Made by a program: the position numbers and the translations under genes
Shown here: positions 37,395 to 64,000 of the stretch, piece by piece
Numbering within the stretch: the first letter of the stretch is position 1
Layout of the letters: the number at the start of each line of letters is the position of its first letter
Notes under the pieces: model-generated
What the model was told of the DNA's origin: nothing
Databases searched by the model: none
Seen by the model: the letters and a program-made list of their open reading frames with translations, nothing else
Source: Sphingomonas sp. LY29
Lineage (GTDB): Bacteria > Pseudomonadota > Alphaproteobacteria > Sphingomonadales > Sphingomonadaceae
Assembly: GCF_035593985.1 (NCBI RefSeq)
Contig: NZ_CP141587.1
Span: 2,106,001-2,170,000 of the forward strand
DNA: 64,000 bases
Reading direction: 5' to 3'

Positions 37395-39563
37395 CTAGAG
37401 GAAGCTGTAGGGGTCGACGTCGACCGCGACGCGGACCTTCGCGCTCCATTCGACGCCGCCGAGCCAGTCGCGGATGACGTCCTGTACGTCGAGCTTGCGG
37501 GCGGCGTGGACCAGCAGGCGCTGGCGGTGGCGGCCGCGCAGCATGGCGAGCGGTGCGGGGGCAGGGCCGAACACCGCCATTTGGTCGACCGTCGGGGCGG
37601 CGGCGGCGATTCGGCGGGCGACCGCCTCGGATTCCTCGCGGTCCTCGGACGACACGACGATGGCGGCGAGCCGGCCGAAGGGTGGCATGGCGGCATCACG
37701 CCGCGCCTCGGTCTCGGCGGCGTAGAAACCGGCGACGTCGCCCGACACCAGCGCCTCGATCACCGGCGCGCCGGGATCGTGAGTCTGGACCAGCACGCGT
37801 CCGGGCTTGTCGCCGCGGCCGGCGCGGCCCGCGACCTGCTGAATCTGCTGGAAACTGCGCTCGGCGGCGCGAAGGTCACCGCCTTGAAGGCCGAGGTCAG
37901 CATCCACGACGCCCACAAGCGTCAGGTTGGGGAAGTGGTAGCCCTTGGTAATCAATTGGGTGCCGACGACGATGTCGATCTCGCGCGCATCCATCGACCG
38001 GACGAACTCCGCGGCACGGGCGGGCGACCAGATCGTGTCCGAGGTGACGATGGCAGTTCGTGCATCTGGGAAGAGAGCCGCCACTTCGTCGGCGATGCGC
38101 TCGACGCCGGGCCCACACGCAACCAAGCTATCTTCGTCGCCGCACTCGGGGCACAGCCGCGGCGGGGGCATGACGTGACCGCAATGGTGGCAGGCCAGTC
38201 GATGCATCAGCCGATGCTCGACCATCCACGCAGTGCAATTCGGGCATTGGAAGCGGTGGCCGCACGTCCGGCACAGCGTCAGCGGGGCGAAGCCGCGGCG
38301 ATTGAGGAAGAGCAAGGACTGCTCGCCGGACGCAAGGTTGGCTTCGAGCTCGGCAACGAGGCTCGGCGCCAGCCAACGGCCGCGCGGCGGCGGGTCCTGG
38401 GTCAGGTCGATCGCCGCGATGCTGGGCATCGTCGCGCCGGCGTGGCGCTCGCTCAACTGCACTTCGCGGTAACGGCCGATCTCGACCATGTGGCGAGTCT
38501 CGATCGCCGGGGTGGCCGAAGCGAGGATGACCGGAATCTGCTCGAAATGCCCGCGCATCACCGCGACGTCGCGGGCGTGATATTGGACGCCTTCCTCCTG
38601 CTTGAAGCTAGGCTCGTGCGCCTCGTCGACGACGATCAGGCCAAGGTTCGCGTAGGGCAGGAATAAAGCAGACCGCGCGCCGACCGTCACCCGGGCCTCT
38701 CCCGCGGCGATCGATCGCCAAGCGCGCCGTCGTTGCGAGGAGCGAAGGTCTGAATGCCACGCGACCGGCTCGCAGCCGAAGCGTGCAGTGAACCGCGTCA
38801 GAAACGGCTCGGTCAGCGCGATTTCTGGTAGCAGGACGAGCATCTGCTTGCCCTGTCGAAGCGCCTCCGCGATCGCCTCGAAATAGACTTCGGTCTTGCC
38901 AGATCCGGTGACGCCATCAAGCAGCACCGGGTCGAACCCCTGGCCGATCGCGGCGGTCAGGCTGTCGGCCGCCTCGCGCTGTTCACCACGGAGCGTAGGC
39001 GGTGCGAAGTCCGGGTCGGGTTCGGGGAAAGGCGCGTCGCCGTCGACTTCGACCCGTTCGAGCGCGCCGACGTTAACCAGCCCGCGCATCACCGCGTCGC
39101 TGACTTCGGCATGTGCGGCCAGTTCGCGGATCGTACCCTGCCGGCCTTCGATCTTCGACAGTGCCTGTTCGCGTTGCGGAGTCAGCCGCGCGGGCACGTC
39201 ACCCGTCAGCCGATATTCGGTCATCGTCCGTGGACCGGCCAGCGCGGACGAGGACGGCAACACCATCCTCAGCACGCTTGCCAGCGGGGAGAGATAATAG
39301 TCGGCGGTCCACTCGGCGAGGCGGCGGAGCGGGGCGGCGATGGGCGGGACATCGACCAGACCGGCGAGCGGCCTCAACCGATTGTCGCCCACTTCTTCGG
39401 TCGGAAGCCGATCGGCATCCCACGCGACCCCGATCAGCTGGCGCGGGCCGAGCGGGGCCACGACGACGCTGCCCGGCACGACCTCCAGCCCGTCGGGGAC
39501 GCGATAGTCGAGCGGTCCGAGCGCGGCGTTGAGGGTCACGACTCTGGTGCGGGGAAGCGGCAT
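37395..39563 (-). CDS. priA: primosomal replication-restart helicase PriA (intact copy)
   Basis: A 722-residue DEAH helicase that restarts stalled replication forks. Walker A GVTGSGKTEVYFE, VVDEAHEPSFKQ, and the paired zinc knuckles (LCRTCGHRFQCPNC, CHHCG, LCPECG) are present; the 3' BD winged part is at the N-terminus. ATG 39563 (MPLPRTRVV) is preferred to 39584. Bases 37657-39563 are repeated at 51517-53424; the last 262 bases (about 86 residues plus stop) are only here. This is the functional copy. Confidence 0.95.
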   Translation of the reverse strand: MPLPRTRVVTLNAALGPLDYRVPDGLEVVPGSVVVAPLGPRQLIGVAWDADRLPTEEVGDNRLRPLAGLVDVPPIAAPLRRLAEWTADYYLSPLASVLRMVLPSSSALAGPRTMTEYRLTGDVPARLTPQREQALSKIEGRQGTIRELAAHAEVSDAVMRGLVNVGALERVEVDGDAPFPEPDPDFAPPTLRGEQREAADSLTAAIGQGFDPVLLDGVTGSGKTEVYFEAIAEALRQGKQMLVLLPEIALTEPFLTRFTARFGCEPVAWHSDLRSSQRRRAWRSIAAGEARVTVGARSALFLPYANLGLIVVDEAHEPSFKQEEGVQYHARDVAVMRGHFEQIPVILASATPAIETRHMVEIGRYREVQLSERHAGATMPSIAAIDLTQDPPPRGRWLAPSLVAELEANLASGEQSLLFLNRRGFAPLTLCRTCGHRFQCPNCTAWMVEHRLMHRLACHHCGHVMPPPRLCPECGDEDSLVACGPGVERIADEVAALFPDARTAIVTSDTIWSPARAAEFVRSMDAREIDIVVGTQLITKGYHFPNLTLVGVVDADLGLQGGDLRAAERSFQQIQQVAGRAGRGDKPGRVLVQTHDPGAPVIEALVSGDVAGFYAAETEARRDAAMPPFGRLAAIVVSSEDREESEAVARRIAAAAPTVDQMAVFGPAPAPLAMLRGRHRQRLLVHAARKLDVQDVIRDWLGGVEWSAKVRVAVDVDPYSFL

Positions 39564-39572
39564 CGCCCTCAG

Positions 39573-39593
39573 CCCTCCCTGCAACAGGGAGGG
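39573..39593. repeat. GC-rich palindrome upstream of priA
   Basis: CCCTCCCTG-CAA-CAGGGAGGG, a perfect nine-base stem with three-base loop, ten bases beyond the priA start and eight bases after the purC stop. It could terminate purC transcription weakly (no T tract) or sequester the priA leader. It is of the same type as the atpD-atpC palindromes. The exact duplicate is at 53434-53454. Confidence 0.6.
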
Positions 39594-39600
39594 GCGCCCA

Positions 39601-40383
39601 TCACTTGCCGCGTTTCTTGCGGTGCGAGTCCAGGTCGAGGACGGCGTTTTCTTCGCCCTCTTCAGGGAGGAGGCCGAGCCGACGGGCGACTTCCTGATAA
39701 GCTTCGGCTTCGCCGCCGAGACTTTGACGGAAGCGATCCTTGTCGAGCTTCTCGTTGGTCTTCATGTCCCACAGACGGCAGCCGTCGGGAGAGATTTCGT
39801 CGGCAAGGATCACGCGCGCGAAATCGCCGTCCCAGACCCGGCCGAATTCCAGCTTGAAGTCGATCAGGCGGATGCCGATCCCGGCGAACATCCCGCACAT
39901 GAAGTCGTTCACGCGGATCGCCATGTCGGCGATGTCGTTCATCTCGTCCTGATTGGCCCAGCCGAAGCAGGCGATATGCTCGTCCGCGATCAGCGGATCG
40001 CCAAGCGCATCGTCCTTGTAATAATATTCGATGATCGTGCGCGGAAGCTGGGTGCCTTCCTCGATCCCCAGGCGCTTCGACAGCGAACCCGCGGCGACGT
40101 TGCGGATGACGACCTCGATCGGGATGATCTCGACCTGGCGGATCAGCTGCTCGCGCATGTTGACCCGGCGGATGAAATGGGTCGGCACCCCGATCGTCGC
40201 GAGCGACGTAAAGATGTGCTCCGAGATCCGGTTGTTGAGCACGCCCTTGCCGTTGATCGTGCCGCGCTTCTGCGCGTTGAAGGCGGTCGCGTCGTCCTTG
40301 AAATACTGGATGAGCGTACCGGGCTCGGGACCCTCATAGAGGATCTTAGCCTTGCCTTCGTAGATCTGGCGGCGTCGAGCCAT
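39601..40383 (-). CDS. purC: phosphoribosylaminoimidazole-succinocarboxamide synthase (SAICAR synthetase)
   Basis: A 260-residue enzyme of de novo purine synthesis that joins CAIR and aspartate with [18 protein letters not shown], the ATP-lysine region ([10 protein letters not shown]) and [14 protein letters not shown] are diagnostic, with LIDFKLEFG and [14 protein letters not shown] near the C-terminus. ATG 40383 ([10 protein letters not shown]) is used; a longer frame has a poor start. A charged tail ([11 protein letters not shown]) extends beyond the usual end. Duplicated at 53462. Confidence 0.95.
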
Positions 40384-40461
40384 GCTGAGGGGAACTCCGG
40401 CTGAAATCGAAAGAGGGGCGGCTATAGGCGAGCCGCCCCCCATCCGCAATTCACGCCGCCG

Positions 40462-43323
40462 CTATCGCGCCGCGGTAGTGATCAGCCCTGCATTGGGGGT
40501 CCGCACGCTGACGACCCGCACCCGGCGAAGCGTTTCGGGAAGGAGATATTGCTTCGCCAGCCGCTGCAGCTCGGCCGGTGTCATCGCGGCGTAAATCGCC
40601 TCCTGCTGTCGGACGCGTTCCAGCCGGGCGGCGCGGCCCTGCGCGCGGGCGGCTACGCCCAGCCACCAGCCATTTTCGCGGCGGCTGCGGGCAAGCGATT
40701 CGAGGATCGGGGCGCGGACGCGATTGAACAGATCCTGGTCGATCGGCTTGTCGCGCAGCGATTGGGTCGCGGCATCGAACGCGGCCTCGACCTCGTCGAT
40801 CTTGTCAGGCGCAACGACGGTGCTGGCCGACAACGTGCCGAAATCGTCGTAGACGTCGGACATCGTCGATCCGACGCTAACGCCGTAGCTGGCGCCCAAT
40901 TGTTCACGGATCGATTCGGTCAGCATCAGGTCGAGCGCCTGAGCGAGCATTCCCATCCCGATTTCCTTGCGGAAGTCGTCGTCGTCGTCGGTCGGCCAGA
41001 AAGCAGCGACAAGCGCCTGATCGGCCGGGCCGGAGTGAGTGAGGCGGATCGGCGAGCGATCGGCACGGAGCGTCACCTTGCGCGGATCCACAATCGCGCC
41101 ATCGTCGCGACGCTTCGGCAGCGCGCCGAAACTGGCGGCGACGGCGGCGATCGCGGCGTCCTCATCCATGTCGCCGACGATCCCGATTTCGATCGGCGCA
41201 TCGGCCAGCAACGGCGTCATCGCCGCACGCGCCTCGGCGAAATTGCGCTGCAGCAGCGCCTGGGCGGGCGGCGCGCCGAAACGATAATCGTTGTTGAGCA
41301 GGATGACGGGAACGCGCGTCGCGAACACCGACATCGGCTGGCTGTCGAACTGCTTATCGATCACGGGCACGATGTTCGACCAGCGCTGCGCCGCCTCGGG
41401 GCGATAGCCGGGATCGGTGAGATAGGCCGCGCTGACCTTCATCTGGAGCGCGAGGTCGGCGGGCGTGGTCGCGCCGCCGGAAGAAAAGGCATCGGGCCCG
41501 ACCGAGCTTCCGGCCGAGTAGACGCGGCCGGCCAGCGCTTCCTTGATATCCTCGAACGACTGGCGGCCGGTCCCGGCCATGGTCGACAGCGACGACAACA
41601 TGATGTTGAGCCCGGGCTTGTCCTGCGGAAGCGCCGCCTGACCTCCGGCCATCCTGACCGAGAAACGTACCCGCCCGGCTTCGAAATCGGTTTTCTTGAT
41701 GTTGAGCCGCACGTTGTTGGCAAAGCGGACGGTGCGGATGCCGAGGTCGGCGATGCGCGTATCGCTGACGACCTTGCCGGGTTGGCCAAAGTCCTCATAG
41801 GCGAAGGCCTGATCGGCGGCGGCCGCGACGGCGGCGGGGAGAGGACGCATCTGCGCCTCGGCCCACGCCATCCCGATCGCGGCGGGGGTCACCGGCAATT
41901 TCTCGCTGACGTGGATCAGCGGCGCGCTTCCCTTCCACTTCTCGCGGAAGGCCGCATTGACGGCGTCGAGCGTGATCGTCGGCTGAATTTCTTTGAAAAA
42001 GGCCAAGCGCCAGGCAGGATTGGTCAGCACCGCGCGGTCGTCGCTGGCCTCGGCGATGGTGGCGGCGAGCGTGGCATTGCTGCGCGTGCCGGCCTGTTCG
42101 GCGGTCGTCCGGAAACCGGTCTCCATGCGCGCCAGTTCGCGCTTCAGTTCGGCAGCGGTGAAGCCATTGGCGAGCGCGGAGCGCAATTCCCTCTCTGCGG
42201 CGGCAAGTGCATCCGCCCACGCGCCGTCCTTCGCGCTCACCGTCAGGCTTTCGCTGAAGGCGAGGTCGCGAAATCCTCCCGATCCGGCCGAAGCACCGAT
42301 CAGCGGCGAATCCTCGCGGTTGACGAGCCGCGTGAGCCGTCGCGAGAGGATGGCGGTGCCAAGGCTGTCGAGGAGGCTGTCGCGCCGTTCAGCCCGGGTG
42401 TCGATCGGTTCTTCGTAAGGCCGCAGCACCGTGACGCTCACGGCCGTGGCGACATTGGTATTGCGGAAGGTGTCGACCGCGGTCGGACGCGCGAAGTCGA
42501 TCTTGCCGACGGCGGGTTTGGCGCCCGCAGGACCGACGCCGCGCCAGTCGGCGAACTTCGCCTTGATCTTGGCCTCGATCGCTTGCGGGTCGATGTCGCC
42601 GACCACCACCAGGGTCGCATTTTCGGGGCGATAATAGCGACGATAGAGCGCGCGCATCGTTTCCGCGCTGGCGGTCTGCAGCACTTGCGGCGTACCGATC
42701 GGCAGGCGCCGCGCGTGCAGCGCCTGCGGCATGGTGAAGCCGAGTTGGTCGATCAGTTGTCGAAGCTGAAACCCTTCGCGGCTGCGCCGTTCGCCGAGAA
42801 TCACGCCCCGTTCGCGATCGACCGCGGCAGGATCGAACTTCACCTCGCTGGCGACCTCGCGCATCAGGAAAAGGGCGTTGTCTACCCGCGCCTGGTCGGC
42901 GACCGGAAGCTCGAGCATGTAACTGGTTGAATCGAACCCCGTCAGCGCGTTCGTGTCGGGGCCGAAGCGCAGGCCCTGCCGTTCGAGAATGCGCACCATC
43001 TCGCCCTCGGCGACATTGGTGGTGCCATTGAAGGCCATATGCTCGATGAAGTGGGCCAGCCCGCGCTCATTCTCCGCCTCGGCAAGCGAGCCAGCACCGA
43101 TACGCAGGCGCACCGACGCCGCGCCCTTGGGCGTGCCGTTGCGCATGATCGCATATTTCATCCCGTTAGGAAGGTTGCCGAGGCGGATCGCGGGATCGGC
43201 GGGCACGTCGGTGGCCGGCACCCCCCAGCCGTTGGCCGAAACCGAAGGGGTCTGCGCGATCGCCGACAGCGAGAGAGGGAGCAGCGCGGCCAGGATGACC
43301 GATCGACCGAACAAATGTCTCAA
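40462..43323 (-). CDS. exported M16-family zinc metallopeptidase (double-domain)
   Basis: A 953-residue pitrilysin/insulinase-type peptidase with a signal peptide (residues 1-23, cleaved near SAIAQ). The inverted zinc motif H91-F-I-E94-H95 is followed by the distal Glu region DRERGVILGERRS near residue 170-180. Two further inactive-like M16 halves make the four-part chamber. TTG 43323 is the start, with GGAGAG eight bases upstream. It lies downstream of the regulator pair on the same strand, 75 bases away. Duplicated at 54323. Confidence 0.9.
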   Translation of the reverse strand: MRHLFGRSVILAALLPLSLSAIAQTPSVSANGWGVPATDVPADPAIRLGNLPNGMKYAIMRNGTPKGAASVRLRIGAGSLAEAENERGLAHFIEHMAFNGTTNVAEGEMVRILERQGLRFGPDTNALTGFDSTSYMLELPVADQARVDNALFLMREVASEVKFDPAAVDRERGVILGERRSREGFQLRQLIDQLGFTMPQALHARRLPIGTPQVLQTASAETMRALYRRYYRPENATLVVVGDIDPQAIEAKIKAKFADWRGVGPAGAKPAVGKIDFARPTAVDTFRNTNVATAVSVTVLRPYEEPIDTRAERRDSLLDSLGTAILSRRLTRLVNREDSPLIGASAGSGGFRDLAFSESLTVSAKDGAWADALAAAERELRSALANGFTAAELKRELARMETGFRTTAEQAGTRSNATLAATIAEASDDRAVLTNPAWRLAFFKEIQPTITLDAVNAAFREKWKGSAPLIHVSEKLPVTPAAIGMAWAEAQMRPLPAAVAAAADQAFAYEDFGQPGKVVSDTRIADLGIRTVRFANNVRLNIKKTDFEAGRVRFSVRMAGGQAALPQDKPGLNIMLSSLSTMAGTGRQSFEDIKEALAGRVYSAGSSVGPDAFSSGGATTPADLALQMKVSAAYLTDPGYRPEAAQRWSNIVPVIDKQFDSQPMSVFATRVPVILLNNDYRFGAPPAQALLQRNFAEARAAMTPLLADAPIEIGIVGDMDEDAAIAAVAASFGALPKRRDDGAIVDPRKVTLRADRSPIRLTHSGPADQALVAAFWPTDDDDDFRKEIGMGMLAQALDLMLTESIREQLGASYGVSVGSTMSDVYDDFGTLSASTVVAPDKIDEVEAAFDAATQSLRDKPIDQDLFNRVRAPILESLARSRRENGWWLGVAARAQGRAARLERVRQQEAIYAAMTPAELQRLAKQYLLPETLRRVRVVSVRTPNAGLITTAAR

Positions 43324-43398: not shown

Positions 43399-44157
43399 TT
43401 ATCGTCCGGCAATCGTCCGCACCTGATCGGCGTAGAGCCGGCCGACCGGCTGTTCGCTGCCGTCGGCAAGCCGCGCGATCCAGCGACCCGAGGCATTCCG
43501 GCTGAAGCCGGCGATGAAGTCGCGGCGAACGATCGCCGACCGGTGCAGGCGCACGAACCGTTCGGGATCGAGGCCTTCCTCCAGCGCGGTCATCGAATGA
43601 TGGATCAGCCAGCTGCGATTGCCGACGTGCAGGCGCATATAATCGCGCTCCGCACTCACCCGGTCGATGTCGCGCGTGGCGATTCGGACCAGGCCGGTCA
43701 GGTCCGATGCCCAGAATTCCTCGAGATAGGGAGACGACGGCGTGGCGGGCTCGTCCGGCGTGCCCTCGGCGTCGCGGGTCGCGATGTAATCGACGGCTCG
43801 CTCGATCGCGCGTGACAGCCGTTCGGTGTCGACCGGCTTCATCAGATAGTCGATCGCGGCCACGTCGAAGGCCGCGACCGCGAACTGGTCGAACGCCGTC
43901 ACGAACACGACCGCCGGCGAAACCGGCTGTCGCGACAGCGCGCGAGCGACTTCGATCCCGTCCAGTCCCGGCATGGCGATGTCGAGCAGGACGAGATCGG
44001 GCGCTAGCGCCTCGGCCATCCGGACGGCGCTTTCGCCGTCATGCGCAGTGCCGACGAGGTGGATCGAGTCGATCCGTGCCAGCATCATCTGCAATCGCTC
44101 GGCGGCGAGTGGCTCGTCGTCGGCGATCAGGACCTTCAAGGCGCGCTGCTCAGTCAT
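43399..44157 (-). CDS. LytTR-family response regulator
   Basis: A 252-residue regulator. Receiver domain: IADDEPLAAERL at the N-terminus, phosphorylated Asp in LVLLDIAMPGLDG and Lys in YLMKPVDTE; the C-terminal LytTR DNA-binding domain includes VSAERDYMRLHVGNRSWL and RFVRLHRSAIVRRDFI. ATG 44157 (MTEQRALK) overlaps the kinase stop by eight bases, so the pair is translationally coupled; the longer frame to 44235 is rejected. Targets unknown; the downstream M16 peptidase gene may be regulated with it. Duplicated at 57260. Confidence 0.9.
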   Translation of the reverse strand: MTEQRALKVLIADDEPLAAERLQMMLARIDSIHLVGTAHDGESAVRMAEALAPDLVLLDIAMPGLDGIEVARALSRQPVSPAVVFVTAFDQFAVAAFDVAAIDYLMKPVDTERLSRAIERAVDYIATRDAEGTPDEPATPSSPYLEEFWASDLTGLVRIATRDIDRVSAERDYMRLHVGNRSWLIHHSMTALEEGLDPERFVRLHRSAIVRRDFIAGFSRNASGRWIARLADGSEQPVGRLYADQVRTIAGR

Positions 44158-45367
44158 CGTCCTCCACGGGAATTGCGATCGAGACATTATAGCCGCCGTC
44201 GATCGGACCGAAGCGACAATCGGCCTTCGCGCCATAATGCGCGGTCAATCGCTGGCAAACGTTGGCAAGGCCAAGGCCGGTTCCCTGGTGCGGGGCATTG
44301 CCGACGGCGCGGCTGCGGCCCTGTCCGTCGGCGACCTGGTTGGCGATGTCGAGCTGCATCCGACCATCGTCGAGCCGGTGCGCCGTGATGGTCAATTCGA
44401 CCCGCGCCGTCGTGACCGACACGCCGTACTTGATCGCGTTTTCGATGATCGGCTGGAGGATCAGCGCCGGCACCCGCGCTTCGGCCAAGTCGGCGGGGAT
44501 GTCGATCGTCACGTGAAGGCGATCCGGAAAACGCACTTTCTCGATATCGAGATACAGTTTCTGCAGCCGGATTTCCTCGGCCAAGCTGACGTCGGCAGAC
44601 GGGTCGATCGACAGGCTGGTGCGGAAAAAGGTCGATAGAGCCATCAGCATGTTTTCGGCGCGATCCGACCGGCCCGACATGACCAGCGACGACAGGCTGT
44701 TGAGCGTGTTGAACAGGAAGTGCGGATTGACCTGATAGCGCAGCGCCCTGACCTGCGCCGCGTGGGCGGCGGTCTCGGCGGCGGCAAGGCGCGTCTCTGC
44801 AATGCGGGTGCGGCGCTGTTCGGTCATGGCGATGAAGAAGGCGCACCACGCCGCGAACATAAAATACCAGGTGACCGTGCCGTCGGCGATCAGGCGCGGA
44901 AGCTTGCTCGCGATGATTTCTTCCATCGGCGGCAGGTTGACCTCAAGCTCGTTGCCGTCCTGCCGGACGATGCGGACGTTATTGCCTCGCTGGACGATCG
45001 CCACGCCTTCCTGCGTCGTGATGCGGGAGGAGGGGCCCATCGGATCGGACACGGTCGCAAGCTTCAGGCTGAGCACCGACATGATCAGCGCCGCCGGAAG
45101 CGACGCGATCGCGGCAACGATCGCCATTCGCCGGACGGTGCCTTCGCGGGCGAGTAATCGCAGCCCGATGTAGATGGCAAAGGTCAGCAACAGGCCGACC
45201 CCGGCGTTGAGAAAGCGGAACGCGATTGCGGAAGCAGCCTCCGGCCCCATCAACCCGCGCAACAGGACGGTGACGAGATAAAAGGCCCAAAAGCCGATGA
45301 TCGATTGCGTTGCGAGCCGCCAGTCGGCGAAGCGACCGTGCGGCGAAAATGCGGAAAGGGCAGCCAT
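44150..45367 (-). CDS. LytS-like membrane sensor histidine kinase
   Basis: A 405-residue kinase with about four or five hydrophobic segments in the first 180 residues, then the His_kinase domain: phosphoacceptor His in YQVNPHFLFNTLNSL, ALILQPIIENAIKYG (N box) and GTGLGLANVCQRL (G box). This His box class (HisKA-LytS, PHFLFN) pairs with LytTR regulators, as here. No HAMP domain. Stimulus unknown. Duplicated at 58011. Confidence 0.9.
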   Translation of the reverse strand: MAALSAFSPHGRFADWRLATQSIIGFWAFYLVTVLLRGLMGPEAASAIAFRFLNAGVGLLLTFAIYIGLRLLAREGTVRRMAIVAAIASLPAALIMSVLSLKLATVSDPMGPSSRITTQEGVAIVQRGNNVRIVRQDGNELEVNLPPMEEIIASKLPRLIADGTVTWYFMFAAWCAFFIAMTEQRRTRIAETRLAAAETAAHAAQVRALRYQVNPHFLFNTLNSLSSLVMSGRSDRAENMLMALSTFFRTSLSIDPSADVSLAEEIRLQKLYLDIEKVRFPDRLHVTIDIPADLAEARVPALILQPIIENAIKYGVSVTTARVELTITAHRLDDGRMQLDIANQVADGQGRSRAVGNAPHQGTGLGLANVCQRLTAHYGAKADCRFGPIDGGYNVSIAIPVEDDD

Positions 45368-46522: not shown

Positions 46523-47911
46523 CTATGCACCCAGACGCGCGACGATCTCCGCGGCGAATTCGCTGAGGGTGTCGTCGCGCGCGCCAAGGATCGCGATCGT
46601 GTCGCCTTCTGCCGCTTCACGAACGAGTTTGTCTCCGATGGCGGCGCGTTCGGCGATGTGAATGGCGTTGCCGCCGGCATCGCTGATAGCGCTGGCGAGC
46701 CATTCCGATCCTTTCGACCGGTCGACCGTTCCGCCCTGATAGACGGGATCACTGAGGTAGAGCCGGTCGTCGGCGCGAAGACCCTTGGCAAAGGTGGCGG
46801 CAAGGTCGTCGCCCATCTTGGCGATGGGACCGTATCCGTGCGGCTGGAAAATCACCAGCAGGCGGCCGGGACGATGGGTCAGGGTGGCAAGCGTCGCGGC
46901 GATCTTGTCGGGATTGTGCGCGAAATCGTCGATCACCGTCACGCCGCGTGCGACGCCGACCGTCTCCAGCCGCCGCTTGAGGCCTGCAAAGCCGGTTAGG
47001 GCCGCTGCTGCATCGGCCACCGGAACGTCTAGCGCCACGACGGCGGCGAGCGCCGCCAACGCATTCTGCGCATTGTGGCGCCCCGGGAGCGAGAGGCTGA
47101 CCTCTGTGCTGTCGCCGCTAGTCTGGACGCTAAAGGTCAGGCCGTCGGCGGACAGCGACAGGTTGCGGCCGCTGACCGCGGCGCCGGGACTATCGAAGCC
47201 GAAACCGACCCGCCGATCCGCCGGCACCGCTTCGGCCAGCGCGCGGCTTTCGGGATCGTCGAGATTAACAACGGCTTTGTCGGCCGCCTCGAGAAAACCG
47301 GCGAACAACCCGCGTAACTCATCCATCGTCTTGTGATCGAGGCTGATGTTGCCCAGCACCGCAACGGTCGGTCGATAGAGCGCGATCGAACCGTCGCTTT
47401 CGTCGACCTCGCTGACGAACAGCCCCGGATCGCCGACCAGCGCCGATGCGAAGGGCGCGTCGTCGGTCACGAAATTCTTCATCACGGCGCCGTTCATCAC
47501 GGTCGGGCGGCGACCGAGCTCGTGAAGGATGAAGCCGATCATCCCGGTCACAGTCGACTTGCCGCTGGTCCCGCCGATGGCGACGCTAACCTGTGCGTCG
47601 TTCAGCAGTCGCGCCAGCAATTGCGGGCGGGTGACATGCTCCAGACCGAGTTCGCGCGCTCTGACCACGTCGGGGATCGAGGATTCGACCGCCGCGGAGG
47701 TAACCAGCGTATCGCCCGTAACCAGGCCCGACCCGTCCTGCGGATACAGCGAGACCCCGAGCGAGCGGAGATAGTCGAATTTCGCGCCCAGGCGGCCGGC
47801 GTCGAGCGAGCGGTCCGATCCTGCGACATCGGAACCCTGTGCGCGCTGGATGGCGGCGAGGGGCAGCATTCCGCTGCCGCCGACGCCGCAGAAATAATAT
47901 CGATTGGTCAT
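46523..47911 (-). CDS. Mur ligase, MurC/Mpl-like (likely murein tripeptide recycling)
   Basis: A 462-residue ATP-dependent ligase. N-terminal Rossmann CGVGGSGMLPLA binds the UDP-sugar, GGTSGKSTVTG is the P-loop, FVSEVDESDGSI contains the catalytic Glu/Asp, ISLDHKTMDEL the His, and DDFAHNPDKIAATL the C-domain. It resembles MurC but more so Mpl, which joins recycled L-Ala-D-Glu-mDAP to UDP-MurNAc. Divergence from an LD-carboxypeptidase, which would generate that tripeptide, supports the recycling role. Duplicated at 60384. Confidence 0.85.
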   Translation of the reverse strand: MTNRYYFCGVGGSGMLPLAAIQRAQGSDVAGSDRSLDAGRLGAKFDYLRSLGVSLYPQDGSGLVTGDTLVTSAAVESSIPDVVRARELGLEHVTRPQLLARLLNDAQVSVAIGGTSGKSTVTGMIGFILHELGRRPTVMNGAVMKNFVTDDAPFASALVGDPGLFVSEVDESDGSIALYRPTVAVLGNISLDHKTMDELRGLFAGFLEAADKAVVNLDDPESRALAEAVPADRRVGFGFDSPGAAVSGRNLSLSADGLTFSVQTSGDSTEVSLSLPGRHNAQNALAALAAVVALDVPVADAAAALTGFAGLKRRLETVGVARGVTVIDDFAHNPDKIAATLATLTHRPGRLLVIFQPHGYGPIAKMGDDLAATFAKGLRADDRLYLSDPVYQGGTVDRSKGSEWLASAISDAGGNAIHIAERAAIGDKLVREAAEGDTIAILGARDDTLSEFAAEIVARLGA

Positions 47912-47961
47912 TGTCTCGCAGCCCTATTCGGCGCCCGCGCCATGTGCAATTGCTGCATGCG

Positions 47962-48780
47962 ATGAAGATCGCCGTCGTCGCGCCCAGTTGCCCGCTCAGC
48001 CCGATCGCCGCCGAGCGCGTGGCCGCCATCCTCGCCGAGCGCGGCGGGGCAGCCCTAATGGTCCATCCTCAATGTTTCTTCTCCGACGGACACTTCGCCG
48101 GAAGCGATGCCGCGCGGTTGGCGGCACTGCGCGAGGTGATGGCCGACGAGACGGTGGACGCGGTCTGGTTTGCGCGCGGAGGCTATGGATCGAACCGGAT
48201 TGCCGAGGCGGCGATGGCCGACCTGCCACCGGCGGCGCGGTCCAAGACGTATTTGGGCTTTTCGGACGGGGGCTTCCTGCTTGCCGCCTTCGACCGCGCT
48301 GGCCTGCAGGTCGCGCATGGGCCGATGGTGCAGGACGTGCTCCGGGACGGCGGAGCGGACGCGGTTCGCCGTGCGCTCGATTGGCTGATCGATCGCGACC
48401 CGGCATCGCTTGAGGGCGGACTTTCACCGACGCGGCGCTCGATGGCGTTTAACCTGACCGTCCTGTCGAGCCTGCTGGGCACACCGCTCGAACCGGACTT
48501 CACCGGTGCCGAGCTGCTGATCGAGGATGTCGCCGAGCATGAGTATCGGATCGACCGGATGATGTTCCACGTCACCAGCAGCGCGGCGGTCGCGCGATGC
48601 GCCGGCATCCGGCTGGGGCGCATCACCGAAGTGCCGGACAACGACCCGGTCTTCGGCAAGGACGCCGAAGCGATCGTTCGCGAGTGGTGCGGACGCAGCG
48701 GAATTGCCTATCTGGGGCCGGCCGATATCGGTCACGACGCGGCGAACAAGGTCGTCCCGTTCCGCCCTGCGCTCGACTGA
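47962..48780 (+). CDS. ldcA: LD-carboxypeptidase (S66 family)
   Basis: A 272-residue cytosolic serine peptidase. The nucleophile Ser is in ARGGYGSNRI, the catalytic Glu in LLIEDVAEHEYRIDRM and the His in ADIGHDAANKVVPF, the S66 triad. LdcA removes the terminal D-Ala from the murein tetrapeptide to yield the tripeptide used by Mpl. ATG 47962 gives the MKIAVVAPSCPLSP start; a longer frame from 47839 overlaps the divergent ligase gene. Divergent promoters must lie in the 50-base gap. Duplicated at 61823. Confidence 0.9.
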   Translation: MKIAVVAPSCPLSPIAAERVAAILAERGGAALMVHPQCFFSDGHFAGSDAARLAALREVMADETVDAVWFARGGYGSNRIAEAAMADLPPAARSKTYLGFSDGGFLLAAFDRAGLQVAHGPMVQDVLRDGGADAVRRALDWLIDRDPASLEGGLSPTRRSMAFNLTVLSSLLGTPLEPDFTGAELLIEDVAEHEYRIDRMMFHVTSSAAVARCAGIRLGRITEVPDNDPVFGKDAEAIVREWCGRSGIAYLGPADIGHDAANKVVPFRPALD

Positions 48781-49225: not shown

Positions 49226-49975
49226 TCAGCGGCAGCCGCGCCAACCGGTCGCGCCGCGAGATGCCTGATCGAAGTGAAGATGGTCGGCATGCGCCGCATT
49301 ATAATCGGGCGACAGGACGGTGGAGAACAGGTCGCAGGCGCCATCGCGAACGTCGCGAAGAAAGGCTTTTTCGTCCACCTTGCCGTTCCAGTTGCCGAGA
49401 AGGGTGATGCGGCGGCCGTCGGCCAGGCGGAAAGCGACGATGTCGACCGCATCGGCGGTGGCATGCTCGCTGAACGGGCCGTCGCTGCGCCCGTAGAGAC
49501 GCCGGCAACTGTAGCTTCCCGCATGGTCGATGCGCGTGACGCGGCTGTCGAAATGGCGACGCGCGGCGAGCTGGACCACATCGTGTTCCCAGATCGCCAG
49601 TGCCGCCGCGACCGGGCAGGCGGTGACCAGTCCATCGGGCCGGAAATCGATCGACCGGTCGGTTTCGGGCGTCAGGCGCACGCCGTCGTCGTAACCGCAC
49701 TGGCCGCCTTCGGCCGACCGGGGCGGGGCGGCGACCTCCGCGAAGCCGGCAGCGTCCAGTAGGGCTTTGCACGCCGGACCGTCGTCGGTGAGCGCGGCGA
49801 GCTTGCGACCGGTAAAGGGCCCCACCGGATCGTCGAGGCTTAGCGGCGTCCAGGGGAAGCGTTCGGGCTCTTCGACCACCACCCGCTGATATTCGCGCCA
49901 CCCGAGGAAGAGTGCGCCCACCAACAGGAGGATCGTCAGCCAGCATCCGATCCGGGCGCTGCGGGGTTTAGGCAC
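49226..49975 (-). CDS. extensin-like C-terminal domain protein (membrane-anchored)
   Basis: A 249-residue protein with one N-terminal membrane span (CWLTILLLVGALFLGW, residues about 10-25) and an extensin-like C-terminal domain in the periplasm: SCRRLYGRSDGPFSEHATADAVDI and the C-terminal AHADHLHFD are typical of the Extensin_C family, a fold related to peptidoglycan-binding/DD-carboxypeptidase-like metal enzymes (His and Asp residues). It starts at GTG 49975, overlapping the NUDIX stop by eight bases. Exact role unknown. Duplicated at 63087. Confidence 0.83.
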   Translation of the reverse strand: MPKPRSARIGCWLTILLLVGALFLGWREYQRVVVEEPERFPWTPLSLDDPVGPFTGRKLAALTDDGPACKALLDAAGFAEVAAPPRSAEGGQCGYDDGVRLTPETDRSIDFRPDGLVTACPVAAALAIWEHDVVQLAARRHFDSRVTRIDHAGSYSCRRLYGRSDGPFSEHATADAVDIVAFRLADGRRITLLGNWNGKVDEKAFLRDVRDGACDLFSTVLSPDYNAAHADHLHFDQASRGATGWRGCR

Positions 49976-50714
49976 GAAAGGCGGTCGTGAGCGGTTCGAA
50001 CAAGATCGGATAGCCGCGATCGCCGGGAATGCGGACGTGAGGCACGCCGTCGATGTCCTCGACCCACGGGATGATTGTATCGAGCGAGTGATCCTTCGCA
50101 TCTTCGATCGCGGCGGTCAGCAGGCGATGCCGCGCCAGCCGTTCCAGGTTACGTTTGGTCGGGAAGATCGCGTGGGCGTCGCCGCGCTCGATCCGCTTCA
50201 GAATGTCTTCTGGCGATGCCCACTCGGCGGCGACGCACTCGCCGGGTTGTGGCGTGGTCGGCCAATCGCCCTTAGGCGAGGGCGCCAGATAGAAGATCGT
50301 GTCGAACTTCCGTGGCTGCTTGAATGCCGGCATCCATCGCGCGAACGGCACGAGCAGGTCGAGGTCGAGGCGCAGCCCCATCGTCGCGATCGCGTCGGCG
50401 AAGTCGTCGCCGGCGAGTAGTCGCCGCTGAAGTTCGGGACCGGCCTCGGGAGCGGCGTCCGCAGCGACCAACACCGCGCTCTCCTCGACCGTTTCGCGAA
50501 TCGCGGTGATCTTGGCCGCCTCATCGGGCGAGCCCAGTTCCGCAGCGAATCGACGGTCGGCGTTATCCACCCGGCCGCCGGGAAAAACGGTCGCGCCAGC
50601 CGCGAAAGCCATGCGCGACGACCGCTCCACTACGAGAATTCGCGGATCGGCGAAAGTGGGAGTGGGGTCGCGCCAGACGATCAGGGTGGCGGCGGGAATG
50701 GCGTCGTCGTGCAT
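49968..50714 (-). CDS. NUDIX-family hydrolase (NUDT19-like)
   Basis: A 248-residue protein. The Nudix box is stretched (GGRVDNADRRFA ... AAKITAIRETVEESAVLV): the REx2EE core is present but with an insert, as in NUDT19-like acyl-CoA/CoA diphosphatases. The C-terminal half (PRKFDTIFYLAP, EWASPEDIL) also matches that group. ATG 50714 is favoured (MHDDAIPAATLIVWRD). Likely cytosolic. Only its C-terminal part recurs in the second copy (63829-64000). Confidence 0.85.
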   Translation of the reverse strand: MHDDAIPAATLIVWRDPTPTFADPRILVVERSSRMAFAAGATVFPGGRVDNADRRFAAELGSPDEAAKITAIRETVEESAVLVAADAAPEAGPELQRRLLAGDDFADAIATMGLRLDLDLLVPFARWMPAFKQPRKFDTIFYLAPSPKGDWPTTPQPGECVAAEWASPEDILKRIERGDAHAIFPTKRNLERLARHRLLTAAIEDAKDHSLDTIIPWVEDIDGVPHVRIPGDRGYPILFEPLTTAFRA

Positions 50715-50744
50715 GAAGCCTGCTGTAGAAGCTGTTCGATCCAA

Positions 50745-51097: not shown

Positions 51098-51269
51098 TGG
51101 AAAAATCCCCTTTTAATCGTGTGGTGGCGCAGCGCCGTCCTCACATGAGCGGTTCAAACGCAACCACATCCGTAACGGTTCCCCGGAAGCGTCGCTTTTG
51201 TCAATCGCTTGTCTCGCGGAGCAGAGGAGCCTATCTTGGCCATGCCGGGCAACCGGCTACGTCGGTAGA

Positions 51270-51516
51270 TGATTGGGTGGAATAGGCATTTCGGACCCGG
51301 GGGGCAGTACCCCGGCGCCTCCACCACCAGCGGATCATGCGAATTTTTCAATTCGGGTTGGCTGCTGATGGGGGCGAAATAGGATCGACGAGTGCAATAA
51401 AGTCCCAGTTGCCGATCGGTATGAGACCACCGCGACGGCTCATTCACACAAGTGCCAACGATAACGAGGCTCTTGCGATTGCCGCGTAACCCAATGCCTC
51501 ACGGTATAGGTTACTA
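51270..51516 (+). ncRNA. ssrA: circularly permuted two-piece tmRNA
   Basis: The acceptor piece comes first and ends CGCCTCC-ACCA at 51316-51326; an intervening 43 bases with a GAATT/AATTC hairpin follow; the coding piece starts GGGGGCG at 51370-51376, which pairs with CGCCTCC as the acceptor stem with one G-U at position 3. The tag frame starts at GCC 51454 and encodes ANDNEALAIAA, ending TAA at 51489. AATGCCT (51493-51499) is the exact complement of AGGCATT (51284-51290), joining the pieces. Permutation is typical of alphaproteobacteria. The 3' end of the coding piece is uncertain because the repeat junction at 51517 abuts it. Confidence 0.92.
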
Positions 51517-53424
51517 ACGATGGCGGCGAGCCGGCCGAAGGGTGGCATGGCGGCATCACGCCGCGCCTCGGTCTCGGCGGCGTAGAAACCGGCGACGTCG
51601 CCCGACACCAGCGCCTCGATCACCGGCGCGCCGGGATCGTGAGTCTGGACCAGCACGCGTCCGGGCTTGTCGCCGCGGCCGGCGCGGCCCGCGACCTGCT
51701 GAATCTGCTGGAAACTGCGCTCGGCGGCGCGAAGGTCACCGCCTTGAAGGCCGAGGTCAGCATCCACGACGCCCACAAGCGTCAGGTTGGGGAAGTGGTA
51801 GCCCTTGGTAATCAATTGGGTGCCGACGACGATGTCGATCTCGCGCGCATCCATCGACCGGACGAACTCCGCGGCACGGGCGGGCGACCAGATCGTGTCC
51901 GAGGTGACGATGGCAGTTCGTGCATCTGGGAAGAGAGCCGCCACTTCGTCGGCGATGCGCTCGACGCCGGGCCCACACGCAACCAAGCTATCTTCGTCGC
52001 CGCACTCGGGGCACAGCCGCGGCGGGGGGCATGACGTGACCGCAATGGTGGCAGGCCAGTCGATGCATCAGCCGATGCTCGACCATCCACGCAGTGCAAT
52101 TCGGGCATTGGAAGCGGTGGCCGCACGTCCGGCACAGCGTCAGCGGGGCGAAGCCGCGGCGATTGAGGAAGAGCAAGGACTGCTCGCCGGACGCAAGGTT
52201 GGCTTCGAGCTCGGCAACGAGGCTCGGCGCCAGCCAACGGCCGCGCGGCGGCGGGTCCTGGGTCAGGTCGATCGCCGCGATGCTGGGCATCGTCGCGCCG
52301 GCGTGGCGCTCGCTCAACTGCACTTCGCGGTAACGGCCGATCTCGACCATGTGGCGAGTCTCGATCGCCGGGGTGGCCGAAGCGAGGATGACCGGAATCT
52401 GCTCGAAATGCCCGCGCATCACCGCGACGTCGCGGGCGTGATATTGGACGCCTTCCTCCTGCTTGAAGCTAGGCTCGTGCGCCTCGTCGACGACGATCAG
52501 GCCAAGGTTCGCGTAGGGCAGGAATAAAGCAGACCGCGCGCCGACCGTCACCCGGGCCTCTCCCGCGGCGATCGATCGCCAAGCGCGCCGTCGTTGCGAG
52601 GAGCGAAGGTCTGAATGCCACGCGACCGGCTCGCAGCCGAAGCGTGCAGTGAACCGCGTCAGAAACGGCTCGGTCAGCGCGATTTCTGGTAGCAGGACGA
52701 GCATCTGCTTGCCCTGTCGAAGCGCCTCCGCGATCGCCTCGAAATAGACTTCGGTCTTGCCAGATCCGGTGACGCCATCAAGCAGCACCGGGTCGAACCC
52801 CTGGCCGATCGCGGCGGTCAGGCTGTCGGCCGCCTCGCGCTGTTCACCACGGAGCGTAGGCGGTGCGAAGTCCGGGTCGGGTTCGGGGAAAGGCGCGTCG
52901 CCGTCGACTTCGACCCGTTCGAGCGCGCCGACGTTAACCAGCCCGCGCATCACCGCGTCGCTGACTTCGGCATGTGCGGCCAGTTCGCGGATCGTACCCT
53001 GCCGGCCTTCGATCTTCGACAGTGCCTGTTCGCGTTGCGGAGTCAGCCGCGCGGGCACGTCACCCGTCAGCCGATATTCGGTCATCGTCCGTGGACCGGC
53101 CAGCGCGGACGAGGACGGCAACACCATCCTCAGCACGCTTGCCAGCGGGGAGAGATAATAGTCGGCGGTCCACTCGGCGAGGCGGCGGAGCGGGGCGGCG
53201 ATGGGCGGGACATCGACCAGACCGGCGAGCGGCCTCAACCGATTGTCGCCCACTTCTTCGGTCGGAAGCCGATCGGCATCCCACGCGACCCCGATCAGCT
53301 GGCGCGGGCCGAGCGGGGCCACGACGACGCTGCCCGGCACGACCTCCAGCCCGTCGGGGACGCGATAGTCGAGCGGTCCGAGCGCGGCGTTGAGGGTCAC
53401 GACTCTGGTGCGGGGAAGCGGCAT
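51517..53424 (-). pseudogene. priA: priA second copy: truncated and frameshifted
   Basis: Identical to the intact priA except for one extra G in the run at 52024-52029, which shifts the frame within the last zinc knuckle (LCPECG region), and for the loss of the C-terminal 86 residues at the repeat junction. The frame beyond the shift runs out of the repeat and stops antisense in ssrA (51444). Only the first roughly 466 codons from ATG 53424 are intact. As a real locus it would be non-functional; it is also the expected look of an error-prone contig end. Confidence 0.9.
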
Positions 53425-53433
53425 CGCCCTCAG

Positions 53434-53454
53434 CCCTCCCTGCAACAGGGAGGG
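53434..53454. repeat. GC-rich palindrome, second copy
   Basis: Same CCCTCCCTG-CAA-CAGGGAGGG hairpin as at 39573, between purC and priA of the second unit. Confidence 0.6.
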
Positions 53455-59602: not shown

Positions 59603-59670
59603 TAACAGCGTGCCTCAAACATCACACGCACCGGCAGAAGTCGGTTCGGTGACATTTTAACATTGCGACG

Positions 59671-59712
59671 ATCCCACCCCTCTGATTCAATCTGAATGGG
59701 GGGTGGGATTTT
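59671..59712 (+). terminator. terminator-like hairpin, second copy
   Basis: Same ATCCCACCCC/GGGGTGGGAT stem with TTTT as at 45810-45851. Confidence 0.6.
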
Positions 59713-59774
59713 GGTTAAGCGTTTCGCAACCACGCTGGCCGCATGATCCACCCAAGGCAAAAGGAGTTGGGTGG

Positions 59775-60326: not shown

Positions 60327-60383
60327 TCGGGCAGCTTCACCGACGGAAAATGGCGGGTGAGCTCTGCAATGCTTGCCCGTGCA

Positions 60384-61772
60384 CTATGCACCCAGACGCG
60401 CGACGATCTCCGCGGCGAATTCGCTGAGGGTGTCGTCGCGCGCGCCAAGGATCGCGATCGTGTCGCCTTCTGCCGCTTCACGAACGAGTTTGTCTCCGAT
60501 GGCGGCGCGTTCGGCGATGTGAATGGCGTTGCCGCCGGCATCGCTGATAGCGCTGGCGAGCCATTCCGATCCTTTCGACCGGTCGACCGTTCCGCCCTGA
60601 TAGACGGGATCACTGAGGTAGAGCCGGTCGTCGGCGCGAAGACCCTTGGCAAAGGTGGCGGCAAGGTCGTCGCCCATCTTGGCGATGGGACCGTATCCGT
60701 GCGGCTGGAAAATCACCAGCAGGCGGCCGGGACGATGGGTCAGGGTGGCAAGCGTCGCGGCGATCTTGTCGGGATTGTGCGCGAAATCGTCGATCACCGT
60801 CACGCCGCGTGCGACGCCGACCGTCTCCAGCCGCCGCTTGAGGCCTGCAAAGCCGGTTAGGGCCGCTGCTGCATCGGCCACCGGAACGTCTAGCGCCACG
60901 ACGGCGGCGAGCGCCGCCAACGCATTCTGCGCATTGTGGCGCCCCGGGAGCGAGAGGCTGACCTCTGTGCTGTCGCCGCTAGTCTGGACGCTAAAGGTCA
61001 GGCCGTCGGCGGACAGCGACAGGTTGCGGCCGCTGACCGCGGCGCCGGGACTATCGAAGCCGAAACCGACCCGCCGATCCGCCGGCACCGCTTCGGCCAG
61101 CGCGCGGCTTTCGGGATCGTCGAGATTAACAACGGCTTTGTCGGCCGCCTCGAGAAAACCGGCGAACAACCCGCGTAACTCATCCATCGTCTTGTGATCG
61201 AGGCTGATGTTGCCCAGCACCGCAACGGTCGGTCGATAGAGCGCGATCGAACCGTCGCTTTCGTCGACCTCGCTGACGAACAGCCCCGGATCGCCGACCA
61301 GCGCCGATGCGAAGGGCGCGTCGTCGGTCACGAAATTCTTCATCACGGCGCCGTTCATCACGGTCGGGCGGCGACCGAGCTCGTGAAGGATGAAGCCGAT
61401 CATCCCGGTCACAGTCGACTTGCCGCTGGTCCCGCCGATGGCGACGCTAACCTGTGCGTCGTTCAGCAGTCGCGCCAGCAATTGCGGGCGGGTGACATGC
61501 TCCAGACCGAGTTCGCGCGCTCTGACCACGTCGGGGATCGAGGATTCGACCGCCGCGGAGGTAACCAGCGTATCGCCCGTAACCAGGCCCGACCCGTCCT
61601 GCGGATACAGCGAGACCCCGAGCGAGCGGAGATAGTCGAATTTCGCGCCCAGGCGGCCGGCGTCGAGCGAGCGGTCCGATCCTGCGACATCGGAACCCTG
61701 TGCGCGCTGGATGGCGGCGAGGGGCAGCATTCCGCTGCCGCCGACGCCGCAGAAATAATATCGATTGGTCAT
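60384..61772 (-). CDS. MurC/Mpl-like Mur ligase, second copy
   Basis: Identical to 46523-47911, with the GGTSGKST P-loop. Divergent from the second ldcA, as in the first unit. Confidence 0.83.
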   Translation of the reverse strand: MTNRYYFCGVGGSGMLPLAAIQRAQGSDVAGSDRSLDAGRLGAKFDYLRSLGVSLYPQDGSGLVTGDTLVTSAAVESSIPDVVRARELGLEHVTRPQLLARLLNDAQVSVAIGGTSGKSTVTGMIGFILHELGRRPTVMNGAVMKNFVTDDAPFASALVGDPGLFVSEVDESDGSIALYRPTVAVLGNISLDHKTMDELRGLFAGFLEAADKAVVNLDDPESRALAEAVPADRRVGFGFDSPGAAVSGRNLSLSADGLTFSVQTSGDSTEVSLSLPGRHNAQNALAALAAVVALDVPVADAAAALTGFAGLKRRLETVGVARGVTVIDDFAHNPDKIAATLATLTHRPGRLLVIFQPHGYGPIAKMGDDLAATFAKGLRADDRLYLSDPVYQGGTVDRSKGSEWLASAISDAGGNAIHIAERAAIGDKLVREAAEGDTIAILGARDDTLSEFAAEIVARLGA

Positions 61773-61822
61773 TGTCTCGCAGCCCTATTCGGCGCCCGCG
61801 CCATGTGCAATTGCTGCATGCG

Positions 61823-62641
61823 ATGAAGATCGCCGTCGTCGCGCCCAGTTGCCCGCTCAGCCCGATCGCCGCCGAGCGCGTGGCCGCCATCCTCGCCGAG
61901 CGCGGCGGGGCAGCCCTAATGGTCCATCCTCAATGTTTCTTCTCCGACGGACACTTCGCCGGAAGCGATGCCGCGCGGTTGGCGGCACTGCGCGAGGTGA
62001 TGGCCGACGAGACGGTGGACGCGGTCTGGTTTGCGCGCGGAGGCTATGGATCGAACCGGATTGCCGAGGCGGCGATGGCCGACCTGCCACCGGCGGCGCG
62101 GTCCAAGACGTATTTGGGCTTTTCGGACGGGGGCTTCCTGCTTGCCGCCTTCGACCGCGCTGGCCTGCAGGTCGCGCATGGGCCGATGGTGCAGGACGTG
62201 CTCCGGGACGGCGGAGCGGACGCGGTTCGCCGTGCGCTCGATTGGCTGATCGATCGCGACCCGGCATCGCTTGAGGGCGGACTTTCACCGACGCGGCGCT
62301 CGATGGCGTTTAACCTGACCGTCCTGTCGAGCCTGCTGGGCACACCGCTCGAACCGGACTTCACCGGTGCCGAGCTGCTGATCGAGGATGTCGCCGAGCA
62401 TGAGTATCGGATCGACCGGATGATGTTCCACGTCACCAGCAGCGCGGCGGTCGCGCGATGCGCCGGCATCCGGCTGGGGCGCATCACCGAAGTGCCGGAC
62501 AACGACCCGGTCTTCGGCAAGGACGCCGAAGCGATCGTTCGCGAGTGGTGCGGACGCAGCGGAATTGCCTATCTGGGGCCGGCCGATATCGGTCACGACG
62601 CGGCGAACAAGGTCGTCCCGTTCCGCCCTGCGCTCGACTGA
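61823..62641 (+). CDS. ldcA: LD-carboxypeptidase (S66), second copy
   Basis: Identical to 47962-48780, with the GYGS nucleophile, Glu and GHDAAN histidine motifs intact. Confidence 0.87.
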   Translation: MKIAVVAPSCPLSPIAAERVAAILAERGGAALMVHPQCFFSDGHFAGSDAARLAALREVMADETVDAVWFARGGYGSNRIAEAAMADLPPAARSKTYLGFSDGGFLLAAFDRAGLQVAHGPMVQDVLRDGGADAVRRALDWLIDRDPASLEGGLSPTRRSMAFNLTVLSSLLGTPLEPDFTGAELLIEDVAEHEYRIDRMMFHVTSSAAVARCAGIRLGRITEVPDNDPVFGKDAEAIVREWCGRSGIAYLGPADIGHDAANKVVPFRPALD

Positions 62642-62658
62642 GCGGGCCTCTTGCGTCG

Positions 62659-62675
62659 CCCCTCTTGCAAGGGGG
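62659..62675. repeat. GC-rich palindrome, second copy of 48798
   Basis: Same CCCCTCTTGCAAGGGGG palindrome between ldcA and the SWIB gene of the second unit. Confidence 0.5.
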
Positions 62676-62719
62676 TGCCGTTTGCGCTCTACCACTCTGC
62701 AGAACAACAGGAGGGCCTC

Positions 62720-62998
62720 ATGGCAAAAGCAGCATCAAGCGGTACCGGTCGTAAAGCAGGTGGCGGTCTCGCCCGCCCGGTGACCCCGTCGCCCGAACTC
62801 GCAGCGGTGGTCGGATCGGACCCCTTGCCGCGCAGCGAAGTGGTGTCGAAGGTTTGGGATCACATCCGCAAGAATAACCTCCAGAATCCGCAGAATAAGC
62901 GGGAAATTCTGGCCGACGACAAACTGAAGAAAGTCTTCGGCGTCGACAAGTGCACGATGTTCGAAATGAACAAGCACCTGTCGAAGCACCTCAGCTAA
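62720..62998 (+). CDS. SWIB/MDM2 domain protein, second copy
   Basis: Identical 92-residue SWIB protein to that at 48859-49137, with the same AGGAGG ribosome site. Confidence 0.9.
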   Translation: MAKAASSGTGRKAGGGLARPVTPSPELAAVVGSDPLPRSEVVSKVWDHIRKNNLQNPQNKREILADDKLKKVFGVDKCTMFEMNKHLSKHLS

Positions 62999-63036
62999 GA
63001 CAGCTTCTTCCGCTCATCGGCGGGAAACGAAAAACG

Positions 63037-63067
63037 GGGTCTGCGGCCAAGTCGCAGGCCCTTTTTT
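63037..63067 (+). terminator. rho-independent terminator, second copy
   Basis: Same nine-base GGGTCTGCG/CGCAGGCCC stem and T6 as at 49176-49206. Confidence 0.87.
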
Positions 63068-63086
63068 CATGCCCGAGTGATTCGTT

Positions 63087-63836
63087 TCAGCGGCAGCCGC
63101 GCCAACCGGTCGCGCCGCGAGATGCCTGATCGAAGTGAAGATGGTCGGCATGCGCCGCATTATAATCGGGCGACAGGACGGTGGAGAACAGGTCGCAGGC
63201 GCCATCGCGAACGTCGCGAAGAAAGGCTTTTTCGTCCACCTTGCCGTTCCAGTTGCCGAGAAGGGTGATGCGGCGGCCGTCGGCCAGGCGGAAAGCGACG
63301 ATGTCGACCGCATCGGCGGTGGCATGCTCGCTGAACGGGCCGTCGCTGCGCCCGTAGAGACGCCGGCAACTGTAGCTTCCCGCATGGTCGATGCGCGTGA
63401 CGCGGCTGTCGAAATGGCGACGCGCGGCGAGCTGGACCACATCGTGTTCCCAGATCGCCAGTGCCGCCGCGACCGGGCAGGCGGTGACCAGTCCATCGGG
63501 CCGGAAATCGATCGACCGGTCGGTTTCGGGCGTCAGGCGCACGCCGTCGTCGTAACCGCACTGGCCGCCTTCGGCCGACCGGGGCGGGGCGGCGACCTCC
63601 GCGAAGCCGGCAGCGTCCAGTAGGGCTTTGCACGCCGGACCGTCGTCGGTGAGCGCGGCGAGCTTGCGACCGGTAAAGGGCCCCACCGGATCGTCGAGGC
63701 TTAGCGGCGTCCAGGGGAAGCGTTCGGGCTCTTCGACCACCACCCGCTGATATTCGCGCCACCCGAGGAAGAGTGCGCCCACCAACAGGAGGATCGTCAG
63801 CCAGCATCCGATCCGGGCGCTGCGGGGTTTAGGCAC
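63087..63836 (-). CDS. extensin-like protein, second copy
   Basis: Identical to 49226-49975, GTG start at 63836, overlapping the NUDIX stop by eight bases. Confidence 0.8.
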   Translation of the reverse strand: MPKPRSARIGCWLTILLLVGALFLGWREYQRVVVEEPERFPWTPLSLDDPVGPFTGRKLAALTDDGPACKALLDAAGFAEVAAPPRSAEGGQCGYDDGVRLTPETDRSIDFRPDGLVTACPVAAALAIWEHDVVQLAARRHFDSRVTRIDHAGSYSCRRLYGRSDGPFSEHATADAVDIVAFRLADGRRITLLGNWNGKVDEKAFLRDVRDGACDLFSTVLSPDYNAAHADHLHFDQASRGATGWRGCR

Positions 63837-64000
63837 GAAAGGCGGTCGTGAGCGGTTCGAACAAGATCGGATAGCCGCGATCGCCGGGAATGCGGACGTG
63901 AGGCACGCCGTCGATGTCCTCGACCCACGGGATGATTGTATCGAGCGAGTGATCCTTCGCATCTTCGATCGCGGCGGTCAGCAGGCGATGCCGCGCCAGC
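63829..64000 (-). CDS. NUDIX-family hydrolase, second copy, partial at window edge
   Basis: Only the last 56 codons or so (C-terminal part ending EPLTTAFRA) are inside the window; identical to the first copy as far as it goes. Whether the repeat continues through the lipoprotein and ssrA genes cannot be seen here. Confidence 0.75.
   Translation of the reverse strand, partial: LARHRLLTAAIEDAKDHSLDTIIPWVEDIDGVPHVRIPGDRGYPILFEPLTTAFRA

Follow-up and report, generated by a model that had tools for sequence, protein, structure and literature searches.

A near-identical 13.86-kb tandem repeat in the chromosome of Sphingomonas sp. LY29, a probable untrimmed overlap of a circular contig

In the deposited single-contig genome of Sphingomonas sp. 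LY29 (2,463,131 bp), a stretch of 13.86 kb was found twice in succession, in head-to-tail orientation and with near-identical copies. Judged from sequence comparisons, it would very likely be an untrimmed overlap between the start and the end of a circular long-read contig, which mimics a duplication. The repeat probably reflects a faulty database entry, not a biological event.

Extent and gene content of the repeat

The window, i.e., the whole stretch of DNA analysed here, was 64 kb long and corresponded to positions C1:2106001-2170000, C1 being the chromosome contig. The self-BLAST of the window revealed a single repeat pair, 37657-50139 with 51517-64000, which was 99.992% identical and contained one gap. 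For an identical stretch of such a length, a calculation of chance is superfluous. When the chromosome sequence beyond the window was compared, copy 2 was found to continue beyond position 64000 for 1,377 nt, after which other DNA followed. Copy 1 was therefore 13,860 nt long (window 37657-51516, C1:2143657-2157516) and copy 2 13,861 nt long (window 51517-64000 and on to C1:2171377, i.e., C1:2157517-2171377). The sole difference between them was one additional G in copy 2, located 512 nt from its start. An earlier reading based on the sequence only had equated 37657-50139 with 51517-64000 save for one G, and both the self-BLAST and the extended comparison bore this out. It had also given 37657..64000 as the span; the repeat itself stood, but its end had to be moved from 64000 to the last position of copy 2. 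The G+C content of the repeat unit was like that of its surroundings.

The left break of the repeat was located within the priA gene on the minus strand. Copy 1 begins inside the complete priA (37395..39584, 729 aa as listed) at about codon 643, so the mid-gene boundary proposed earlier for priA was correct. The priA of copy 2 (51517..53445, minus strand) had its 3' end removed by the joint between the copies and was frameshifted at 52029. Next to priA, the minus strand carried purC (39601..40449, second copy 53462-54310) and genes encoding an M16 family peptidase (40462..43323, second copy 54323-57184), a LytTR response regulator (43399..44235, second copy 57260-58096) and a sensor histidine kinase (44150..45367, second copy 58011-59228). 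A gene encoding a MurC/Mpl-like Mur ligase, whose product reached the curated threshold of neither NCBIfam model, followed on the same strand (46523..47911, second copy 60384-61772). In a named collection, the 15 loci with the Mur-ligase genes closest to this one were titled Sphingomonas or Sphingomicrobium, the best being from Sphingomonas edaphi with 76% protein identity. The plus strand encoded an ldcA-like LD-carboxypeptidase of family S66 (47839..48780, second copy 61700-62641). Genes for an Extensin-like_C protein (49226..50101, second copy 63087-63962) and a NUDIX-domain protein (49968..50744, second copy from window 63829 past the window end, L010:9829-10605) were again found on the minus strand. 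A protein-family scan of the unit's 10 main ORFs showed no integrase, recombinase or transposase in the tables given.

The right break of the repeat fell within ssrA, encoding a permuted tmRNA. The ssrA of copy 1 (51232..51516, plus strand) was truncated before its 3' end, whereas the complete ssrA of copy 2 (L010:11093-11441, i.e., C1:2171093-2171441) was recognized by both the alpha_tmRNA model of Rfam and ARAGORN. The alpha_tmRNA score was 176.1 bits for the ssrA of copy 1 vs 206.4 bits for that of copy 2. The former lacked its native 3' end and the model aligned that end to priA DNA, whereas the latter had the native end. For copy 1, the calls of both ARAGORN and alpha_tmRNA crossed the joint into priA DNA. 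As ARAGORN gave a tmRNA of equal length at both ssrA sites, the chimera was hidden.

The inner joint, at which ssrA runs into priA, was mapped to window 51516..51517. The bases on both sides of it differed from the first position on, so microhomology was absent (0 bp). Homology or microhomology is usual, though not obligatory, at the joint of a real duplication. The joint is blunt and lies at arbitrary points of two genes. Two details of the sequence-only reading needed correction in the light of these data: the boundary placed just after ssrA is a break inside this gene, as the difference between the two alpha_tmRNA scores indicated, and the ACGA said to be common to both sides of the break is not shared, since the two sides disagree from their very first base. 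Its statement that neither an insertion sequence nor a long repeat was present at the break agreed with the 0 bp shared and with the lack of mobile-element families among the 10 ORFs scanned.

Native and foreign joints in related genomes

The layout of the region can be written as A-X-X-B. To each of the three joints, 1 kb of surrounding DNA was assigned and compared with 89 loci of relatives (L012-L100), a joint being counted as crossed when the match included at least query positions 480 to 520. Among the 89 loci examined, the left outer joint (A-X) was crossed in all 13 loci that matched it and the right outer joint (X-B) in 11 of 11, whereas the inner joint was crossed in none of 22. A search in the whole genomes of 40 relatives, in each of which 6 to 11 candidate places were scored, gave the same picture for the inner joint, as none of the matches listed crossed it and its two halves matched separately.

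The right outer joint was also used as a query against genus relatives. A match was obtained in 59 of 60 of them and passed the break in 58, the two exceptions being one relative without a match and one matching only beyond the break. The DNA following copy 2 was therefore the native DNA found 3' of ssrA in relatives. A check proposed together with the earlier reading, namely to look after copy 2 for another ssrA followed by its genuine downstream sequence, thus revealed both. Based on the comparison with relatives, the inner joint alone is foreign and both outer joints are native. Such an A-X-X-B layout with native outer joints is predicted by a real duplication and by an untrimmed overlap alike.

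The extra G in priA of copy 2

The additional nucleotide was located at window 52029 (C1:2158029), where a run of six G in copy 2 corresponds to five in copy 1, and it caused the frameshift in the priA gene of copy 2. Of 17 matches in relatives' loci, 13 covered the affected codon, and the PriA frame was unbroken there in all 13.

A census of putative frameshifts based on ORFs of relatives identified position 52029 as the strongest signal (13 hits from 9 loci), with a maximum of 3 hits elsewhere. Eight of the 13 hits fell on the priA strand and five on the opposite one. Eight loci ran through the copy-1 site in the priA frame, compared with none at the copy-2 site. In this relaxed version of the census, all loci from L012 up were used with a low identity limit of 45%, and the ORFs matched 31,230 nt of the window, which is less than half of it, and 5,658 nt beyond. 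Weaker signals comprised 11 other bins of the window with 1-3 hits and, in the adjoining 10 kb, six bins with 1-2 hits. The two bins with 3 hits represented the same gene boundary in both copies, and all of these weaker bins were collectively taken as noise. A stricter census, restricted to ORFs of 13 loci and strict filters, detected no frameshift and missed even the one at 52029; it matched 16,963 nt of the window, 3,841 nt beyond and 0 nt of both 20-kb contig ends.

The extra G sits where the weak start of a contig would be if the repeat were an overlap. Provided that a difference may occur uniformly over both copies, the chance of finding it so near the joint is about 4%, a value computed after the position had been seen. 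The indel, at its distance of 512 nt from the joint, is a single event, and it is as such that it bears on the clustering of errors at old contig ends. The frameshift could alternatively have arisen as priA of copy 2 decayed after the joint had truncated it.

Origin of the repeat

The deposited contig starts 216 nt before the ATG of dnaA and ends 173 nt after the stop codon of a gene which, by eye, we take to be rpsT. Rotation to the rpsT-dnaA gap has placed the original ends produced by the assembler inside the contig; in an unrotated contig, an overlap artefact would have been excluded. No match between the first and the last 20 kb of the contig was detected at E 1e-5.

The repeat could have arisen as follows. 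From the circular chromosome, a long-read assembler would have produced a linear contig whose end overran its beginning by 13.86 kb. The contig ends would have been joined with the overlap kept, and the resulting circle would then have been rotated to the rpsT-dnaA gap. Joining without trimming, followed by rotation, would turn the overlap into an internal head-to-tail repeat, with copy 1 derived from the end of the raw contig and copy 2 from its beginning. The true chromosome would have 2,449,270 or 2,449,271 bp. This account starts from what was observed, namely the repeat itself, two native outer joints around a foreign inner one, the rotated contig and an indel near the joint; from these, we infer the history of the assembler and the absence of the joint from any DNA molecule. 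The earlier reading had proposed such an artefact, with a real duplication as the biological alternative, and the artefact interpretation gained support from the rotated contig, the 0-bp joint, the sole difference 512 nt away, and the second ssrA with native downstream DNA.

Overlaps of circular contigs described for Canu, HGAP and NextDenovo assemblies share several features with the LY29 repeat. They likewise form near-identical repeats of thousands of bases, with a break at an arbitrary base and rotation to dnaA (PMC6966772, PMC4699355, PMC5513972), and the single indel of the LY29 repeat may correspond to the errors near their contig ends. According to the Circlator authors, contigs typically show overlaps that are nearly identical and ends of low quality (PMC4699355), and HGAP assemblies are described as often carrying duplicated overlapping ends that need trimming (PMC5513972). 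Unlike the usual contig overlaps, the one proposed here is internal to the deposited contig, presumably as a result of rotation without trimming, and contains one indel only. The repeat length of 13.86 kb would fit that of a long read, which favours an artefact. However, an unpolished contig end would be expected to contain more than one difference per 13.86 kb, which counts against an artefact, as does the presence of Ku in the genome.

Should the repeat be an artefact, about 13.86 kb of the deposited chromosome (0.56%) would be spurious. The copy counts of purC, ldcA, the LytTR pair and ssrA would then be wrong in this genome, and its annotation would include a chimeric ssrA and a broken priA. 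The combination of a near-identical tandem of read length, a 0-bp joint, an indel near the joint and rotation to dnaA offers a simple way to screen other finished genomes for this fault.

The main alternative is that the 13.86 kb were truly duplicated in tandem, very recently, by illegitimate joining of ssrA to priA through Ku-dependent end joining or template switching, and that the duplication was sequenced before RecA recombination could remove it. Such an event is considered unlikely. A Ku family match (171.2 bits) was found in the genome, and since Ku is encoded, blunt end joining is possible. A cell with the duplication would be viable, as an intact priA (copy 1) and an intact ssrA (copy 2) remain, and the same anatomy of two native outer joints and one foreign joint would be expected. 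Duplications between sites that share 0-5 bp of identity are described in Acinetobacter (PMC9997567). However, all 40 sequenced junctions of the E. coli lac amplicon had microhomology (PMC3161906), as opposed to 0 bp here. In Salmonella, about 1% of the cells are reported to lose an unselected duplication in each generation (PMC7661048, citing older work), and no gene of the unit seems an obvious target of selection. Moreover, an identical tandem of 2 x 13.9 kb would probably be resolvable only with reads longer than about 28 kb, and the location of the sole difference close to the joint also speaks against a duplication. The spontaneous duplications of Acinetobacter cat, E. coli lac and Pseudomonas tRNA-Ser are likewise head to tail with one new joint (PMC9997567, PMC3161906, PMC7661048). 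They came from laboratory selection or evolution experiments with PCR-checked joints. It is a little more doubtful still that most cells of the culture used for sequencing carried an unstable 13.86-kb duplication, formed by blunt homology-free joining between ssrA and priA, which would double purC, the LytTR pair and the genes of cell-wall recycling. If real, the repeat would be a natural case of homology-free duplication.

The ssrA gene is a common site of integration. A tandem insertion of a mobile or site-specific element at ssrA would agree with one break lying inside this gene; it is nevertheless extremely improbable, and an integrative element was rejected, as no integrase, recombinase or transposase family was found in the 10 ORFs scanned, the unit consists of housekeeping genes with a G+C content like that of the surroundings, its joint shares 0 bp and its other end lies in the middle of priA. 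Another local misassembly, e.g., a patch step inserting one read-length contig twice, would give an identical anatomy and has a counterpart in an HGAP assembly, for which a 12-kb contig deemed an artefact of duplicated sequence is described (PMC5513972), but it is less simple than an overlap for a single rotated contig and hardly to be expected here. A conserved unit with priA and ssrA at its ends was also rejected, as no match listed crossed the inner joint and the distance between the two genes, calculated with rounded genome sizes, varied from 17.8 to 1,055 kb in 11 single-contig genomes of the same genus.

Chimeric tmRNA and open frame at the joint

A permuted tmRNA with the tag ANDNEALAIAA was called as full-length by ARAGORN at window 51232-51580, across the joint where ssrA of copy 1 runs into priA of copy 2, and the Rfam alpha_tmRNA model likewise gave a complete match to this interval. 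The called tmRNA is a chimera, the 3' end of which is made of priA DNA, and two intact ssrA genes could be counted by automatic annotation. An open frame of 180 aa was also found on the minus strand (window 51444-51986), leading from the frameshifted priA through the joint and on into ssrA in antisense. Without this joint and the additional G in copy-2 priA there would be no such frame.

Other open frames in the repeat

The plus-strand frame of 793 aa at window 40549-42930, antisense to the M16 peptidase gene, is probably a by-product of high G+C; its third-position G+C was 0.68 in comparison with 0.82 in the sense gene. For a plus-strand frame of 207 aa (window 45842-46465), flanked by histidine kinase and Mur ligase genes, no family was found in Pfam or NCBIfam at E 0.001.

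Spacing of priA and ssrA in relatives and the Ku gene

Among 11 single-contig genomes of the genus, the priA-ssrA distance was 17.8 kb in one relative (G023:C1:1686965-1705300), with the order as in LY29, and at least 95 kb in the other 10. The LY29 chromosome carries a Ku-family gene (L101, G000:C1:1929454-1929990; 171.2 bits), which suggests that non-homologous end joining may be present in this small sphingomonad genome.
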